This document shows positions 9,345-19,683 of a stretch of DNA of 45,869 nucleotides, in pieces; within the stretch, counting starts at the first letter, position 1; each line of letters starts with the position of its first letter. The notes below the pieces were generated by a model. The model was not told the origin of the DNA, searched no databases, and saw only the letters and a program-made list of their open reading frames with translations. The position numbers and the translations under genes were made by a program. Location: positions 1-45,869 of the IMG/VR virus record IMGVR_UViG_3300035698_018074, one strand, 5' to 3'. Source of the stretch: a virus.

Positions 9345-9563
9345 AGGATTATCCAGCCAACACCAACAAAACTGGTTCATGGTCAGCTTGATTTTGCTTG
9401 TTATACCCAATGACAAAACATTCAAGATGACCGGCTAAAATATGGCCGGTCAGCGTTGATCGAATTGACAAATATTATTTGACTGTTGCTGTGTCGGCCT
9501 TGATTCTCCATACCGATTCAGGGCCGGGGATAAAAACAATTTAATAGAAAGGAGAAAAATGAA
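9345..9563 (+). other. Intergenic region with two stem-loops
   Basis: No supported gene. It contains an 8-bp stem TGACCGGC/GCCGGTCA at 9428-9452 and the first copy of a 37-bp hairpin repeat at 9495-9531. GTTATACCC near 9400 resembles the core of the attC-like sites, but no convincing partner arm was found. Confidence 0.5.
9495..9531 (+). repeat. 37-bp hairpin repeat, copy 1
   Basis: Identical to 10699-10735. The ends pair (CGGCC against GGCCG) around a TTGATTCTCC...TTCAG loop. It lies 32 bp before a methyltransferase-like gene, as does its twin before the second methyltransferase gene. Confidence 0.9.
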
Positions 9564-10187
9564 ATGGGTAGTGATAAAATAATTTTGCATCTTTGTGCCG
9601 ACATAGGATCTGACACCCTTCCTTTTAAAAGTGCAGGTTATGATGTAAGGCTTATTGGGTCAGATATTGGAGTTGAAAATTACCACCCACCAAAAAAGGT
9701 TTATGGTATTATTGCAAATCCGGTCTGTACCCAATTCAGTATAGCCACCGGTTTTAAAAAGACAGCGGATCAATGCTCTGGTGGGATGTTCTTGGTTAAC
9801 GAATGCATACGCATAATAAACGAATGCGCCCCTGAGTTCTGGGTTATCGAAAACCCGGCTACTGGTAAGCTTAAAGATTTTATAGGAAAGCCGGCACAAA
9901 CCTATGAACCGTGGGAATACGGTGATCCGTGGACTAAAATAACAGCATTATGGGGTAAATTCATCATGCCAGAAAAGCTATACACTAAGTGGGATGATGT
10001 CCCAAAAAATGACAAGCTATACATTAGGCCTGGCAGACCGAAACCGGGATTTGCATTTTTGCACAAATCAGCAATTCACAACATACCAGAGTTCAAGCCG
10101 TTTATAGATCATGTTAAAAATGATGCTGATTTCAGGTCATTATGTTCTCAGGGGTTTGCGACAGCATTTTTTAGCGTCAACACATAA
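9564..10187 (+). CDS. C5-cytosine methyltransferase-like protein (207 aa)
   Basis: Rossmann-type methyltransferase fold without a target-recognition domain. LHLCADIGSDTLPFKSAGYD (residues 9-28) fits motif I, IIANPVCTQFS (49-59) motif IV with the likely catalytic Cys55, and WVIENPATG (93-101) motif VI. The usual PPC is PVC, and motif I is loose, so activity is uncertain. Proteins like this occur widely in phages, often labelled DNA cytosine methyltransferase. AAAGGAG precedes the start. It probably protects or marks phage DNA, alone or with the second methyltransferase. Confidence 0.7.
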   Translation: MGSDKIILHLCADIGSDTLPFKSAGYDVRLIGSDIGVENYHPPKKVYGIIANPVCTQFSIATGFKKTADQCSGGMFLVNECIRIINECAPEFWVIENPATGKLKDFIGKPAQTYEPWEYGDPWTKITALWGKFIMPEKLYTKWDDVPKNDKLYIRPGRPKPGFAFLHKSAIHNIPEFKPFIDHVKNDADFRSLCSQGFATAFFSVNT

Positions 10188-10232
10188 AAAACAAACGCCA
10201 AGTTCTGAGGAATTGTGTTCTTCCGGAGTTGG
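10184..10232 (+). repeat. 49-bp perfect direct repeat, copy 1
   Basis: Identical over 49 bp to 10612-10660. It begins at the stop of the methyltransferase-like gene. GCCAA and TTGGC form weak outer arms, and GGAG near its end may serve as ribosome site for the next small gene. Confidence 0.95.
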
Positions 10233-10611: not shown

Positions 10612-10660
10612 ATAAAAAACAAACGCCAAGTTCTGAGGAATTGTGTTCTTCCGGAGTTGG
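10612..10660 (+). repeat. 49-bp perfect direct repeat, copy 2
   Basis: Second exact copy of 10184-10232. No gene with a start codon follows this copy, unlike the first, so its ribosome-site-like GGAG is orphaned. The stretch to 10817 carries the second hairpin repeat and no supported gene. Confidence 0.95.
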
Positions 10661-10692: not shown

Positions 10693-10736
10693 GATCCCCG
10701 GCCTTGATTCTCCATACCGATTCAGGGCCGGGGATC
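10693..10736 (+). repeat. 37-bp hairpin repeat, copy 2, within an 11-bp perfect stem
   Basis: The shared 37 bp are 10699-10735. In this copy flanking bases extend the stem to a perfect GATCCCCGGCC / GGCCGGGGATC with a 22-nt loop. It is 82 bp before the second methyltransferase gene. A transcription stem or an operator for methyltransferase self-control is possible (inference). Confidence 0.85.
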
Positions 10737-10817
10737 AACACATTAGCTCAGGACGCAAACAGCCGCGCCAGGCTAATCAACTGCATGAACCGGATGAGCT
10801 GGTTATAGGAGGGGAAG

Positions 10818-11489
10818 ATGAGACTTTTAGATTTATTTTGCGGCGCTGGTGGAGCTGGTATGGGGTATTCTCTTGCCGGATATGAAGTTGTTGGCGTAGA
10901 TATCTCACATCAAAAAGAATATCCTTTCGAGTTCATAGAGGGAGACGCTATTGAATATGCCCTAACTCACTGGCCTGAGTTTGACGTTATTCACGCAAGC
11001 CCTCCATGCCAGCATTTTACCAAATATAAAAATTGTAGGAAAGACCTGAAAGACCGATATCAAAATCTTTTAGATCCGACCCGGGATGTTTTGGAGGATA
11101 GTGGGTTGCCTTACGTTATTGAAAATGTTGTAGGAGCTCCGTTAGTAGATCCAATTGTACTATGTGGGTCAATGTTTGGCCTTGATGTTCAAAGACATAG
11201 ATTGTTTGAAAGTAACATGGGTATCAAGCCACCGTCAAAGTGCAACCATAAAGTATGGGAGCCGAACAGATTCCCAGGTGGCCGGTCAAGAGAGCGTGGA
11301 GGTCCTCGTGTTCTTTGTAGAGGCACTGTCGAGGTCGGGCGGTGGAATATAAAAATTGACGTGCAGCAAAAAGCAATGGGTATCAACTGGATTAAAGATC
11401 TTAGGATGCTTTCACAATCTATCCCACCAGCTTATACAAAATGGATTGGTTCAGAGATCAAAAGGTGTGTCGCAGGGCTAACCCGCTAA
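10818..11489 (+). CDS. DNA (cytosine-5) methyltransferase (223 aa)
   Basis: All core motifs of the C5-methyltransferase fold are present: LLDLFCGAGGAGMGY (residues 3-17, SAM-binding motif I), ASPPCQHFT (60-68, catalytic Cys64), YVIENV (99-104, motif VI), QRHRLFE (125-131, motif VIII) and IPPAYTKWIG near the end (motif X). At 223 residues it is short, with almost no target-recognition domain, which is the common phage form. AGGAGGGG precedes the ATG. It likely methylates phage DNA against host restriction. The recognition site cannot be read from the sequence. Confidence 0.88.
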   Translation: MRLLDLFCGAGGAGMGYSLAGYEVVGVDISHQKEYPFEFIEGDAIEYALTHWPEFDVIHASPPCQHFTKYKNCRKDLKDRYQNLLDPTRDVLEDSGLPYVIENVVGAPLVDPIVLCGSMFGLDVQRHRLFESNMGIKPPSKCNHKVWEPNRFPGGRSRERGGPRVLCRGTVEVGRWNIKIDVQQKAMGINWIKDLRMLSQSIPPAYTKWIGSEIKRCVAGLTR

Positions 11490-12377: not shown

Positions 12378-12405
12378 TATGAATAAAAAAATGTTGGCGA
12401 TCACG

Positions 12406-12482
12406 TCTCGCGACACGTCTCGCGACACGTCTCGCGACACTCTCGCGACACTCTCGCGACACTCTCGCGACACTCTCGCGAG
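12406..12482 (+). repeat. Iteron array, probable replication origin
   Basis: Seven head-to-tail units of 11-12 bp share TCTCGCGA, each holding the palindrome TCGCGA: two units of TCTCGCGACACG, four ending CGACAC, and a last TCTCGCGAG. They lie just before the replisome-organiser gene, and two more CTCGCGACAC copies lie inside it at about 12855-12876. Organiser-type initiator plus iterons is the usual phage origin layout (lambda ori is similar). A 38-residue frame through the repeats is judged non-coding. Confidence 0.7.
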
Positions 12483-12512: not shown

Positions 12513-13280
12513 ATGGCTCGATCACGAATGATTAAACCTGAATTTTTCGACGACGAAAAGCTTGCAAGCGTATCAAGAGACTGCCGATTGTTTTTTATCG
12601 GGCTATGGAAATGCTCAGATGATTTTGGAAATGTCAAGGGGCACCCTGTCTGGTTGAAAAACAATATCTTTCCCTATGACGAGGACATTGGGCGAAAGGT
12701 TGTAGATGGGTGGATACGCGACCTTGAGGGGATCGGGGCAATAACAACTTACTCACACAGCAACGAGATTTTTTATAATATTGTCCATTTCCTGAAGCAC
12801 CAAAAGGTTGACAGGCCGTCAAAACAGAGGAACCCGGAACCTGATTCCGACACACTCGCGACACACTCGCGACACATTTCCGAGCCCTCGACAATTCCCA
12901 TCGACGAAACAGAAACAGAAACAGAAACAGAAACAGAAACAGAAACAGAAACAGAAACAGAAATGAAACCAAAAAAGAAAAAATTTCAACCCCCCACACT
13001 CGAAGATGTTATTAGTTTTTTTCTTGAAAACGATTTCCCGGGTGACCTCGGAAGAAAGGCCTTCGAATATTACGCAGAGGCCGAATGGAAAGATTCGAAA
13101 GGGAATCAGGTTAAGAACTGGAAACAGAAAATGAGGGGCGTATGGTTCAGGGATGATCAAAAGCAAGGGCAACGGGCTGAAACGATGAGCAAACAAGAAA
13201 CACAGAGACAGGATGCTTTTAAAAACTTTTTAAGCAAGGAGATCCCAATTGACACCGACGGACCAGCTCAAATTTGCTAA
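12513..13280 (+). CDS. Phage replisome organiser / DnaD-like replication protein (255 aa)
   Basis: The N-terminal 110 residues are a winged-helix domain of the phage replisome organiser type: MIKPEFFDDEKLASVSRDCR, FFIGLWKCSDDFGNVKG, and the FLKHQKVDRPSKQR end that is typical of the family. An (ET)9 linker coded by nine GAAACA units follows, then a C-terminal domain (QPPTLEDVISFFLENDFPGD, WKQKMRGVWFRDD) like other phage organisers. It should bind the iterons and load the host helicase with the next two proteins. Only a weak ribosome site (AAGG) is seen. Confidence 0.85.
   Translation: MARSRMIKPEFFDDEKLASVSRDCRLFFIGLWKCSDDFGNVKGHPVWLKNNIFPYDEDIGRKVVDGWIRDLEGIGAITTYSHSNEIFYNIVHFLKHQKVDRPSKQRNPEPDSDTLATHSRHISEPSTIPIDETETETETETETETETETEMKPKKKKFQPPTLEDVISFFLENDFPGDLGRKAFEYYAEAEWKDSKGNQVKNWKQKMRGVWFRDDQKQGQRAETMSKQETQRQDAFKNFLSKEIPIDTDGPAQIC
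12906..12959 (+). repeat. (GAAACA)9 in-frame hexanucleotide repeat
   Basis: Nine perfect GAAACA units code the Glu-Thr linker of the replisome organiser. A gain or loss of whole units keeps the frame and would only change linker length. Confidence 0.95.
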
Positions 13281-14201: not shown

Positions 14202-14921
14202 ATGAAAAATTATTTATCTTTCGGCGGCGGGGTTAATTCTGTAGCAATGTATCTCTATCTTGTTGAGTCGGAAGTAAAATTCGAGGCTGTTTTCGTTAAC
14301 CACGGCACGGACTGGCCCGAAACCTACGAATATTTCGAAAAGTTTCAGGAATGGGCCAGGCTCCACGGATACCCTAAAATCACTGTCTTGTTGCCAGAGC
14401 AGCAAGGCTTTTCGAACCTATACGACTATGCGTTAAGCAAATCTATGGTTCCCAGCATGATGATAAGGTGGTGTACTACACAATTCAAAATAAACCCAAT
14501 TATGAAGTACTATCAAAAACCATGTTTTAACATGATAGGTATAGACATGGACGAAATTAAAAGGGCGAAAATAAGCATTGTAAATGGGGTTGAAAATAGG
14601 TTTCCATTGCTTGAGGCTGAAATGAGCAGACAAGATTGTAAGCAGTTGATTAAAAGGCATGGTCTTGACGTTCCGATAAAGTCAGGGTGTTACATTTGCC
14701 CTTTCCAAAGGCGCGCGCAATGGGTTGAGTTAAGGATGTGCCACCCCCATCTATTTTGTAAAGCTCAAAAATTAGAATCAAAAAACATGGAATATCGAGA
14801 GGCTAAAGGGAAAAGGCCGTTGTCGCTGGTCAAAGGCGGCAGATTGGAGTCAATCGTTGACGGAAAACAGTACGTATTGTTCGATGTTGACCGGTATCCA
14901 CCATGCAACTGCGTTGATTAA
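14202..14921 (+). CDS. PAPS-reductase / PP-loop family protein (239 aa)
   Basis: SFGGGVNS (residues 6-13) is the PP-loop that binds ATP or PAPS; VNHGTDWPETYEYF, RWCTTQFKINPI (Cys91) and SGCYICPFQRRAQW (Cys163/Cys166) are further family marks. Phage members are often labelled phosphoadenosine phosphosulfate reductase, but their real substrates are mostly unknown. DNA phosphorothioation (DndC-like) and modified-base roles have been suggested for relatives. Sulfur or base modification of phage DNA next to two methyltransferase genes is plausible (inference). A Gly/Ala-rich GAGGAATCGGGGG site lies upstream. Confidence 0.8.
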   Translation: MKNYLSFGGGVNSVAMYLYLVESEVKFEAVFVNHGTDWPETYEYFEKFQEWARLHGYPKITVLLPEQQGFSNLYDYALSKSMVPSMMIRWCTTQFKINPIMKYYQKPCFNMIGIDMDEIKRAKISIVNGVENRFPLLEAEMSRQDCKQLIKRHGLDVPIKSGCYICPFQRRAQWVELRMCHPHLFCKAQKLESKNMEYREAKGKRPLSLVKGGRLESIVDGKQYVLFDVDRYPPCNCVD

Positions 14922-17070: not shown

Positions 17071-17249
17071 CCGAAAAAGTCAGGCTTTCCGAAAAATGCC
17101 CCGCTCGCGATACCGATACGAGGCGGTGTCATGGGAGATCGTGGTTTACTGGAAAGGGAGCAAAGTCGATGCCTTGCCAAGGTCGCCAATGTCCTTGGAA
17201 AGATAAAGTAATTGAGCATTTTAAAAGAAAGGAAAGGAAAACAAAATGA
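17034..17249 (+). CDS. Four-Cys small protein (71 aa)
   Basis: AAGGAGG is about 11 nt upstream of ATG 17034. Cys at 22, 32, 48 and 53 (EKCPARDTDTRRC ... MPCQGRQCPWKD) form a probable zinc site, with a very basic C-terminus. Overlaps the nuclease gene by 37 bp, so it is likely made with it. Late-early phage genes near resolvases often code small DNA-binding zinc proteins; this is the limit of what I can claim. Confidence 0.6.
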   Translation: MVDGLFGDVVAVTEKVRLSEKCPARDTDTRRCHGRSWFTGKGAKSMPCQGRQCPWKDKVIEHFKRKERKTK

Positions 17250-17824
17250 AGATGACAGAAATCAAAAAGATTTGCGAAGCTTATAGGATCGGATACGAAA
17301 AAGGGAAGAATGACGAAATTGATAAACTTCATAGAACCGAAAAGGCGGATATTTCTACGTTAAGAGAAAAACCGATTACGGTTTCCTCGGAAGAGTCAAG
17401 AAGTGTATTTGGTCTGACAGCTAATTGGCGACCGGCCCACTACATTACTAATAAGTTTCAGAATAACGGCGACGGTACGATTTTAGATTCTACAACCGGT
17501 TTGATGTGGGAACAATCCGGCTCGGAGAAAGGGCTATGTCTCAAGGACGTGCCAGCTTATGTGAAAGAAATGAATATAAAAAAACTCGGGGGGTTCAAAG
17601 ATTGGCGACTGCCTACCATGGAAGAATTGCTGTCGTTGATGGAGATAGGAGCGAATAAGTGGGGTTTACATATCAACCTGATTTTCGATGAGGAACAATG
17701 GTGGATTTGGAGTTCCGATTTACGTTCCGGGGGCGGGGCGTGGGTCGTCTATTTCAGCAACGGCCTCGTCTACTGGTATAAGCTCAGCGTCAGTTTCGTT
17801 CGTTTAGTTCGCCGCGGACAATGA
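17246..17824 (+). CDS. DUF1566 protein, DGR target 1 (192 aa)
   Basis: Residues about 58-190 form a DUF1566 (C-type-lectin-like) domain: NWRPAHYITNKFQNNGDGTI, TTGLMWEQSGSEKG, KDWRLPTMEELLSL, and the conserved end VRLVRRGQ. The N-terminal 37 residues are helical and charged. The last 18 codons before the conserved end (17744-17797) are a DGR variable region. Lectin-like DUF1566 folds are a known type of DGR target whose surface loops bind ligands. AAAGGAAAGG precedes the start. It lies in the early region, away from tail genes. Confidence 0.85.
   Translation: MKMTEIKKICEAYRIGYEKGKNDEIDKLHRTEKADISTLREKPITVSSEESRSVFGLTANWRPAHYITNKFQNNGDGTILDSTTGLMWEQSGSEKGLCLKDVPAYVKEMNIKKLGGFKDWRLPTMEELLSLMEIGANKWGLHINLIFDEEQWWIWSSDLRSGGGAWVVYFSNGLVYWYKLSVSFVRLVRRGQ
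17744..17797 (+). other. DGR variable region 1 (18 codons)
   Basis: Aligned codon by codon with 18825-18878, twelve of 18 codons differ, by 18 base changes, and every change is at codon position 1 or 2. The other codons are identical. That is expected if both derive from a template with AAC, AAT and AAG codons and the adenines were randomised. Confidence 0.85.
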
Positions 17825-17853
17825 TGGATCATTCGGCAATTTGAGTCATTTGA
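17798..17853 (+). repeat. Shared 56-bp tail after variable region 1 (IMH-like)
   Basis: Identical to 18879-18934, beginning in the conserved C-terminal codons, running through the stop and including AATGATGGATCATT, a near-palindrome. In DGRs an initiation-of-mutagenic-homing (IMH) element, with a nearby hairpin, stands at this position. Confidence 0.7.
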
Positions 17854-17894
17854 CTATTTTTTTTTGGAATTTGGTTAAAGAAAGGAAAAAATCA

Positions 17895-18905
17895 ATGAAC
17901 GGCAAGGTGATAATTAACATGAACTTGGAAGAGTTCGAGAAATACTGTAAAAGTGCCGGACCTGAAGTCGAAATAAAGATCAGAAAACAGGCGATTGGGT
18001 CTGCCGTAAAAGCATTGTCGAAAAGAATGTTATCTGAAGATGAAAAAAAGTATGTTGAAATCACTGTTAAAAAAAATGTTGGATTGATGATCGGAGGTAT
18101 CGCCGACAGTTTGCAGGGCAAAAAATTGAGGGAAGGCCTTGAAGATTCTCAGGAATTCAGAGACCTGTCACATCATTACAATCGTATTGTAACCGAAACA
18201 ACAAAGGATTTTCTACGAAAAAAATTCACACAGCAAAGCATAACGGAAAAAATCTTGTCGATCGCTGATAAATTTATTGAAAGGGTTGGAGTTGACTTAA
18301 TCGACGAGCATATAAGTTCTGTTGTTAAAGGTTTTTTTGGGGGAATAATGAGGACTTTCGAACTTAGAGTAGATAAACTTCCGAAAAGAGGGCCGCTGAT
18401 AAAAACAACAGAAAGCGAAAAGATTGAGATAGCTCTCCCATTGCGAGAAAAACCGATTACTGTTTCCTCGGAAGAGTCAAAAAGTGTATTCGATCTGACA
18501 GCTAATTGGCGACCGGCCCACTACACTGCTAATGAGTTTCAGGATAACGGGGACGGTACAATTACCGATTTTAAAACCGGTTTGATGTGGGAACAATCCG
18601 GCTCGGATAAAGGGCTATGTCTCAAGGACGTGCCGGCTTATGTGAAAGAAATGAATATAAAAAAACTCGGGGGGTTCAAAGATTGGCGACTGCCTACCAT
18701 GGAAGAATTGCTGTCGTTGATGGAGATAGGAGCGAATATGTGGGGTTTACATATCAACCTGATTTTCGATGAGGAACAATGGTGGATTTGGAGTTCCGAT
18801 TTACGTTCCGGGGGCGGGGCGTGGTACGTCTATTTCGACCTCGGCCGCGTCGGCTGGGGTGAGGGCAACGGCCGTTGCGTTCGTTTAGTTCGCCGCGGAC
18901 AATGA
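17895..18905 (+). CDS. DUF1566 protein, DGR target 2 with helical N-domain (336 aa)
   Basis: The C-terminal 140 residues are nearly identical to target 1 up to the variable region, with only a few base changes outside it. The N-terminal 185 residues are different: an alpha-helical, charged domain (MNGKVIINMNLEEFEKYCKS ... KFTQQSITEKILSIADKFIE) that I do not recognise, without a signal peptide. The same lectin-like head is thus presented on two different stalks. AAAGGAAAAAA lies upstream of ATG 17895; an earlier in-frame start at 17841 is weaker. Confidence 0.85.
   Translation: MNGKVIINMNLEEFEKYCKSAGPEVEIKIRKQAIGSAVKALSKRMLSEDEKKYVEITVKKNVGLMIGGIADSLQGKKLREGLEDSQEFRDLSHHYNRIVTETTKDFLRKKFTQQSITEKILSIADKFIERVGVDLIDEHISSVVKGFFGGIMRTFELRVDKLPKRGPLIKTTESEKIEIALPLREKPITVSSEESKSVFDLTANWRPAHYTANEFQDNGDGTITDFKTGLMWEQSGSDKGLCLKDVPAYVKEMNIKKLGGFKDWRLPTMEELLSLMEIGANMWGLHINLIFDEEQWWIWSSDLRSGGGAWYVYFDLGRVGWGEGNGRCVRLVRRGQ
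18825..18878 (+). other. DGR variable region 2 (18 codons)
   Basis: Counterpart of 17744-17797. The codons read TAC, GAC, CTC, CGC, GGC, GGT, GAG, GGC, AAC, GGC, CGT and TGC where target 1 has GTC, AGC, AAC, CTC, TAC, TAT, AAG, CTC, AGC, GTC, AGT and TTC. Third bases always agree. Confidence 0.85.
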
Positions 18906-18934
18906 TGGATCATTCGGCAATTTGAGTCATTTGA
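18879..18934 (+). repeat. Shared 56-bp tail after variable region 2 (IMH-like)
   Basis: Exact copy of 17798-17853. Downstream the sequences diverge at once, so the conserved block ends close to the hairpin-like palindrome. Confidence 0.7.
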
Positions 18935-18964: not shown

Positions 18965-19119
18965 ATGACGATTATTTCTGTATTGCGAGATAAACCAATT
19001 ATGGTTTCCCCGGAAGAGTTTATAAAAAAATTCGATCTGACAGCTAATTGGCGACCGGCCCACTACACTGCTAATGAGTTTCAGGATAACGGGGACGGTA
19101 CAATTACCGATTTTAAAAC
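18965..19119 (+). pseudogene. Truncated third DUF1566 gene
   Basis: Begins with AAAGGAG and ATG, coding MTIISVLRDKPIMVSPEEFI and then the DUF1566 start. 19030-19119 is identical to 18488-18577 over 90 bp. Similarity stops exactly at 19119, in the middle of the domain, and unrelated sequence follows. The variable region and C-terminus are absent. The frame runs on in unrelated sequence to 19264, giving a 99-residue product that is not a sensible protein. Confidence 0.8.
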
Positions 19120-19437
19120 TATATGCCAGTCTTTGCGACCCGGCGCTCCCCCCGCAGATTGTTCGGCGCGGGCAGACCATCGCCCGCGCCGAGGGTCTGC
19201 AAAAGAGGTATCCTGGGATAACGAACCACATCCACGTCGAAGTGCGTCTGGTGCAGCGCGGTAACCTTTTGGTTGACCCAACTGAAATGTTCTTCCCGCA
19301 TAGGAGCCTAACCCGAGAGGCAGTAGCTTTTAGTCACTTCGATGCTTGGACAGCGTTTCCAGCAGAATTACAGACTCCTGAACATGCATATGCTCTCTTC
19401 CTCCTCATGGCATCCGAGATTAAGATCTTGTTTCCAT
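19120..19437 (+). pseudogene. 3' remnant of an M23-type peptidase gene
   Basis: In the frame that starts 19074 the sequence after the junction reads LYASLCDP, QIVRRGQTIARAEG and NHIHVEVRLVQRGNLLVDPT, which fits the second half of an M23 metallopeptidase domain (a YAHL-like motif, a G-rich loop and the HxH ligands). The first catalytic half is missing. The segment is visibly more G+C rich than its left neighbour. An M23 endolysin or spike protein is likely. Its end overlaps the last late gene on the other strand. Confidence 0.65.
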
Positions 19438-19683
19438 GTCCAGGCGGGACTCGATCCTCGCGATGGCCTGAAGAACTTCAGTGATCCGTGCATCCATCCG
19501 ATCCAGATGCTCCACCGTTCGCTCTTGGTTGCGCCTGTCGTTTGCATGTTGGCGGTCGCAGCCATCCGAACTCACTTTTTTGCCGATCTCGTCCCACACG
19601 TCGTCAAATCGGCGGAACACCAGTAAGAACAAAAACCCTGCTACGGTTGAGCATGCACCTGCCAAATAGTATGACACCGGCAT
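19420..19683 (-). CDS. Small membrane-anchored coiled-coil protein (87 aa)
   Basis: An N-terminal span (YYLAGACSTVAGFLFLLVFR) is followed by a charged helix (HANDRRNQERTVEHLDRMDA). This layout is seen in holin-like or Rz/spanin-like proteins but also in other virion accessory proteins. A very strong AAGGAGG site lies inside the end of the upstream gene, which it overlaps by a few bases. It is the last gene of the late operon, a usual place for a lysis gene. Holin or i-spanin is only a suggestion. Confidence 0.6.
   Translation of the reverse strand: MPVSYYLAGACSTVAGFLFLLVFRRFDDVWDEIGKKVSSDGCDRQHANDRRNQERTVEHLDRMDARITEVLQAIARIESRLDMETRS

Follow-up and report, generated by a model that had tools for sequence, protein, structure and literature searches.

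Tandem DUF1566 genes with DGR-type variable repeats in a phage record that lacks a template, a reverse transcriptase and Avd

The diversity-generating retroelement (DGR) of phage BPP-1, arranged as avd-TR-brt with the target Mtd, acts by adenine-directed mutagenic retrohoming on the 3' end of a gene encoding a C-type-lectin-fold protein (PMC12875486). The commonest domain reported among DGR targets is DUF1566 (PMC6642488). Here, two tandem genes with this domain are described from IMG/VR record IMGVR_UViG_3300035698_018074, the entire 45,869 bases of which were analysed (the window). They share with the BPP-1 system the lectin-type target, the position of the variable part at the gene 3' end and, probably, the adenine-directed mode of diversification. 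Mtd is a late-module tail fibre, whereas the window targets end a plus-strand block of early type, convergent with the structural genes.

The record is classed as linear and is given no completeness value. Tailed-phage genes (terminase, portal, capsid, tape measure) occupy the minus strand from about 20 to 45 kb. On the plus strand, the part as far as 17 kb carries an exonuclease, an SSB, a replication initiator, methyltransferases and a Holliday-junction-resolvase-like gene, and this block is closed by two Lcl_C (DUF1566) genes and a truncated third copy (Table 1). The 26.9 kb downstream of the second variable repeat (VR2) hold the full structural module as far as the terminase, and close to the right end there is a weak match to an HNH endonuclease; the record thus appears to be near full length. 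The relatives of the portal and terminase are distant (best about 40-48%), and no DGR was found on the pieces of them that were examined.

Several repeats were observed elsewhere in the window. A GGTTGGT / 27-bp tandem repeat lies close to the left end (356-474). Two methyltransferase ORFs (9564-10187 and 10818-11489) are flanked by direct repeats of 44 bp (95%, 9495-9538 and 10699-10742) and 49 bp (100%, 10184-10232 and 10612-10660), which suggests duplication or cassette exchange. Tandem 11-bp repeats (TCTCGCGACAC, 6.7 copies, 12397-12481) are located directly upstream of the replication-initiation ORF at 12513 and are likely origin iterons. Inside this ORF, a perfect GAAACA array of 9.7 copies (12906-12963) encodes a short amino-acid repeat; the A-rich stretch 12887-12963 scores as a template repeat (TR) in a naive scan and is actually this array. 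The early block also contains a phosphoadenosine phosphosulfate reductase-like gene (14202-14921; PHROG 424, PF01507).

Table 1. Positions of the target genes, their variable and constant 3' parts and the adjoining truncated copy in the window
Feature	Position	Strand	Description
Target gene 1	17246..17824	+	192 aa; short helical N-terminus, then C-terminal Lcl_C/DUF1566 C-type-lectin-like domain; PF07603 E 2e-21
VR1	17744..17797	+	diversified stretch, 18 codons, 12 unlike VR2
Constant 3' block of gene 1	17798..17853	+	gene end, stop, downstream DNA; 56/56 identical to 18879-18934
Target gene 2	17841..18905	+	354 aa from TTG (336 aa from ATG at 17895); PF07603 E 2e-20
VR2	18825..18878	+	diversified stretch
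Constant 3' block of gene 2	18879..18934	+	identical to 17798-17853
Third DUF1566 copy, truncated	18965..19119	+	final 88 bp identical to gene 2 (18490-18577 = 19032-19119), then abrupt break
Unrelated sequence joined to third copy	19120..19484	+	remnant of another open frame; expected TR-RT site by related phages

Direct comparison of VR1 with VR2, at an offset of 1081, gave 18 substitutions, eight at the first codon position, ten at the second and none at the third. Six codons are altered at both positions, and the amino acid is altered by every changed codon. The 219 bp preceding VR1 (17525-17743) differ from the gene 2 copy at three sites; there is one change in the 191 bp ahead of the VR, and the final 85 bp before the first VR change are identical. 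These counts bear out the preliminary description, which had claimed 18 base changes in 12 codons, all at positions 1 and 2, between a nearly identical upstream part and an identical 56 bp downstream. The start of its interval (17744-18934) also stands. Its end is to be corrected, as 18934 closes the identical 3' block, while VR2 ends at about 18878 and the stop of the second gene is at 18905.

The avoidance of third positions is confined to the VR, because the 339 bp upstream in the same gene pair hold 16 differences distributed 4/6/6 over codon positions 1/2/3 (third-position changes 0/18 versus 6/16; Fisher p = 0.006; (2/3)^18 = 7e-4). Altogether, 18 of the 34 differences across 393 bp fall within 54 bp (binomial p = 7e-8). 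In comparison, the VR-VR pairs of 32 out of 36 known loci with TR and reverse transcriptase (RT), used as a positive control, show zero to two third-position changes; those in the other four were put down, from their rotated pattern, to a wrong frame call by the script. Neither copy has A at 8 of the 18 variable sites, so that, given an A in the template at these sites, both copies would have been rewritten. No enrichment in A was seen at the variable sites (A in one copy at 10/18, near the chance value), which counts against a DGR.

The VRs are followed by a constant 3' end, as is the case in DGR targets with their IMH, here in the form of 56 identical bp with a VR-type GGACA ending. The block ends in GGACAA, where the VRs of relatives read GGACAG and their TRs GGAAAG. 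It likely contains a putative homing signal of the IMH type. Behind the IMH, no strong hairpin was seen by visual inspection of 17825-17853. Searches of viral contigs and genome contigs with 22 and 20 bases of the VR 3' end gave no exact match.

An AlphaFold2 model of the target domain, computed with 60 relatives in the input, has pLDDT blocks of 91-98 across residues 71-190 (mostly >90). Its best PDB match is the C-terminal domain of Legionella Lcl (8q4e, prob 1.00), with a Bdellovibrio domain and C-type-lectin folds ranking next; the first three have a prob of 0.99-1.00 with modest E-values. By PF07603, AlphaFold2 and 8q4e, the gene whose 3' end holds the VR thus encodes a C-type-lectin-like domain. 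The variable residues of protein 1 (167, 171, 172, 174, 176 and 178-184) map to the terminal beta-strands of the predicted domain (165-169, 174-178 and 182-184) or to the stretches between them. By analogy with known DGR targets, they would form a putative ligand-binding face. Protein 2 has a distinct N-terminal head of about 180 aa, followed by a linker and an Lcl_C domain as in protein 1. No relative of this head (17895-18440) was found in any collection searched, and single-protein searches of phage records and viral contigs with the DUF1566 gene gave no match. DUF1566 had been named beforehand as a known type of DGR target, and the Lcl_C (DUF1566) domain of both proteins is indeed a standard one.

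A template was predicted from the two window VRs alone. In it, each site at which VR1 and VR2 differ is set to A, as are three adjacent positions, which turns the changed codons into AAC or AAT (TGGAACGTCTATTTCAACAACGGCAACGTCAACTGGAATAAGAACAACAACAATTACGTTCGTTTAGTTCGCCGCGGA). Seven of 395 Desulfobacterota genomes were matched by this A-template (best E 4e-18, 81% identity over 88 bp), as were 12 of the 258 genomes from the order of the best-matching genome. Eight of the fetched matches adjoin an open frame that contains the GNLTSQ...YxDD signature of DGR RTs, most of them with a VR at most 1.1 kb away; the remaining fetched matches are mostly VRs of similar genes. In contrast, a C-substituted control template matched one of 390 genomes (E 9e-4), and the natural VR1 and VR2 gave fewer and weaker matches as BLAST queries. 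Loci fetched purely by protein similarity served as a second control set. In six of these loci the A-template falls on the TR coordinates, which are rarely reached by the C, G, T, random and natural VR versions. The template with A at the variable sites, suggested as a check in the preliminary description, therefore retrieves genuine TRs beside RT genes in Desulfobacterota. Aligned by codons with the TR of a Desulfobacterota chromosomal DGR (L191), with a one-codon gap placed for best fit, all 18 variable sites are A. With this homologous TR as a proxy, the substitutions are found only at template-A sites. The DGR interpretation of the pair is supported by both results.

VR1 and VR2 are in all probability variable repeats of a DGR. 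According to the proposed mechanism, an error-prone RT would copy a template with AAC, AAT or AAG codons and insert random bases opposite the template adenines, after which the cDNA would replace the 3' end of each target gene. The changes would be limited to codon positions 1 and 2 because adenine-directed copying hits codons of the asparagine and lysine type. Such rewriting would alter the putative binding face of an Lcl_C domain displayed on two different N-terminal heads. Retrohoming is the probable cause of the VR changes. That one template may have rewritten both targets is something we infer from the relatives, because a TR of the exact predicted sequence was not found in the collections searched and the core is absent from the record. 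It is well supported that the pair represents DGR target genes of a known mechanism, as opposed to a complete DGR.

The three components of a complete cassette, TR, RT and Avd, are absent from the 45.9-kb record, and this absence is the new point here. For a DGR-type RT, PF00078 was absent from the record and tblastn with nine DGR RTs gave no match. For Avd, PF22296 and PF05635 were absent, and neither tblastn nor the bAvd profile gave a match. No A-matched repeat was found anywhere in the window by a TR/VR script that recovers TR/VR pairs in most of 50 phage loci with a TR motif. Related phage DGRs are arranged as target-target-(avd)-TR-RT, with all parts on the same strand within a few kb, and the core is in most cases located within about 2.5 kb of the VRs. 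The open frame at 19120-19484 resembles the end of a peptidase by eye; no family match was obtained. A recent deletion at 19119/19120 would have truncated the third target copy, removing its VR along with TR, RT and avd, and left the two VRs orphaned. We propose this deletion tentatively, as the likeliest reason for the missing core, with close to an even chance. Against it, an intact relative was not found for the 19119/19120 junction, and a chimeric assembly join is also conceivable.

Four further viral records (G405, G406, G407 and G408) contain DUF1566 pairs that differ at two codon positions only, with RT absent. In G406 (IMGVR_UViG_3300048597_000667, about 3.5-4.4 kb), two VR genes precede an avd-like gene that shares 66% identity with the one in a phage DGR with tandem targets; unrelated DNA then occupies the expected TR-RT site, and TR and RT are absent. 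G406 thus becomes the second phage record, after the window, in which a VR pair stands without a complete core. G407 (IMGVR_UViG_3300015370_000568), a viral record of 131 kb, has four DUF1566 genes with VR-like variation at its start, at 0.9-5 kb, and no RT. In both G407 and G408 the VRs lie at a contig end or close to one, and these records may simply have been cut.

The identity of the VRs is common to the deletion, to a core supplied in trans and to a core outside the record or a misjoin, and its probability is separate from theirs. A core present in cis, but outside an incomplete or misjoined contig, would agree with the linear class, the missing completeness value and the contig-end VRs of G407 and G408. 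It is rather unlikely, though a serious candidate, given the near-full-length appearance of the record beyond VR2 and the short distance between core and VRs in most relatives. A core acting in trans has a low probability. TR, RT and Avd in a host chromosome or another prophage would then rewrite the phage targets, and remote targets, invisible to surveys searching beside the RT, are known (PMC8144416). In favour of this, the VRs look freshly diversified, with a single change in the preceding 191 bp, in 45.9 kb without a core, and Desulfobacterota genomes contain DGRs with closely similar TRs. However, no host is assigned, the exact 20-base VR 3' end is absent from the genomes searched, and the best TR is just 81% identical over 88 bp. 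Recombination could also have imported a VR diversified in another phage into a lineage that never had an active DGR, as the missing core would allow. Phages are mosaic in general. Because the flanks on either side are shared and almost identical, such an exchange would have had to cover no more than the 54 bp and to stop precisely at their ends, and we consider it very improbable. Finally, an origin without a retroelement, by ordinary point mutations in a binding patch under strong diversifying selection, to which the lectin-like domain and the altered amino acid in all changed codons would be suited, is extremely improbable in view of the third base kept in all changed codons, the six doubly changed codons, the nearly identical flanks and the RT-linked TRs retrieved with the pair-derived A-template.

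The comparison of two tandem targets makes DGR activity recognisable without an RT or a template, and the absent template can be predicted well enough to fetch real DGRs. Such targets are overlooked by RT-first surveys, as has been stated for remote targets (PMC8144416). If RT-less VR pairs are remnants, phages would lose the system recently and repeatedly; if they are served in trans, hypermutation would be common to phage and host. Of interest are the clean prediction of the absent template and the question of whether RT-less phage VR pairs are leftovers or are served by a host DGR. Phages with DGR targets only, rewritten in trans by the DGR of a host or co-resident prophage, might form a functional non-autonomous class, with the window, G406 and possibly G405 as members, but this proposal is doubtful.

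Among the known systems, a published bacterial precedent for the absence of a core is given by Treponema denticola isolates, in which targets without RT and TR were read by the authors as remnants (PMC4891356). Those targets are located on a bacterial chromosome and the window is a phage; the likeness rests on the missing core, not on the target proteins. The partial system of G406 has two VR-bearing DUF1566 genes with differences at positions 1 and 2 only and no RT, like the window, but retains its avd-like gene. L191 has, as in the window, a DUF1566 target with a C-terminal VR. Its VR ends in GGACAG and its TR in GGAAAG, and the TR is 81% identical to the predicted window template over 88 bp. 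Unlike the window, L191 is complete, with a target, an Avd-like gene, a TR and a GNLTSQ-type RT, and is one codon longer. The target arrangement itself is found in seven phage DGRs, where two or three short Lcl_C targets stand in tandem, differ in their N-termini and have their VRs at the gene 3' ends; in these, unlike in the window, the TR and RT (with an avd homologue where compared) follow at most about 2.5 kb downstream.
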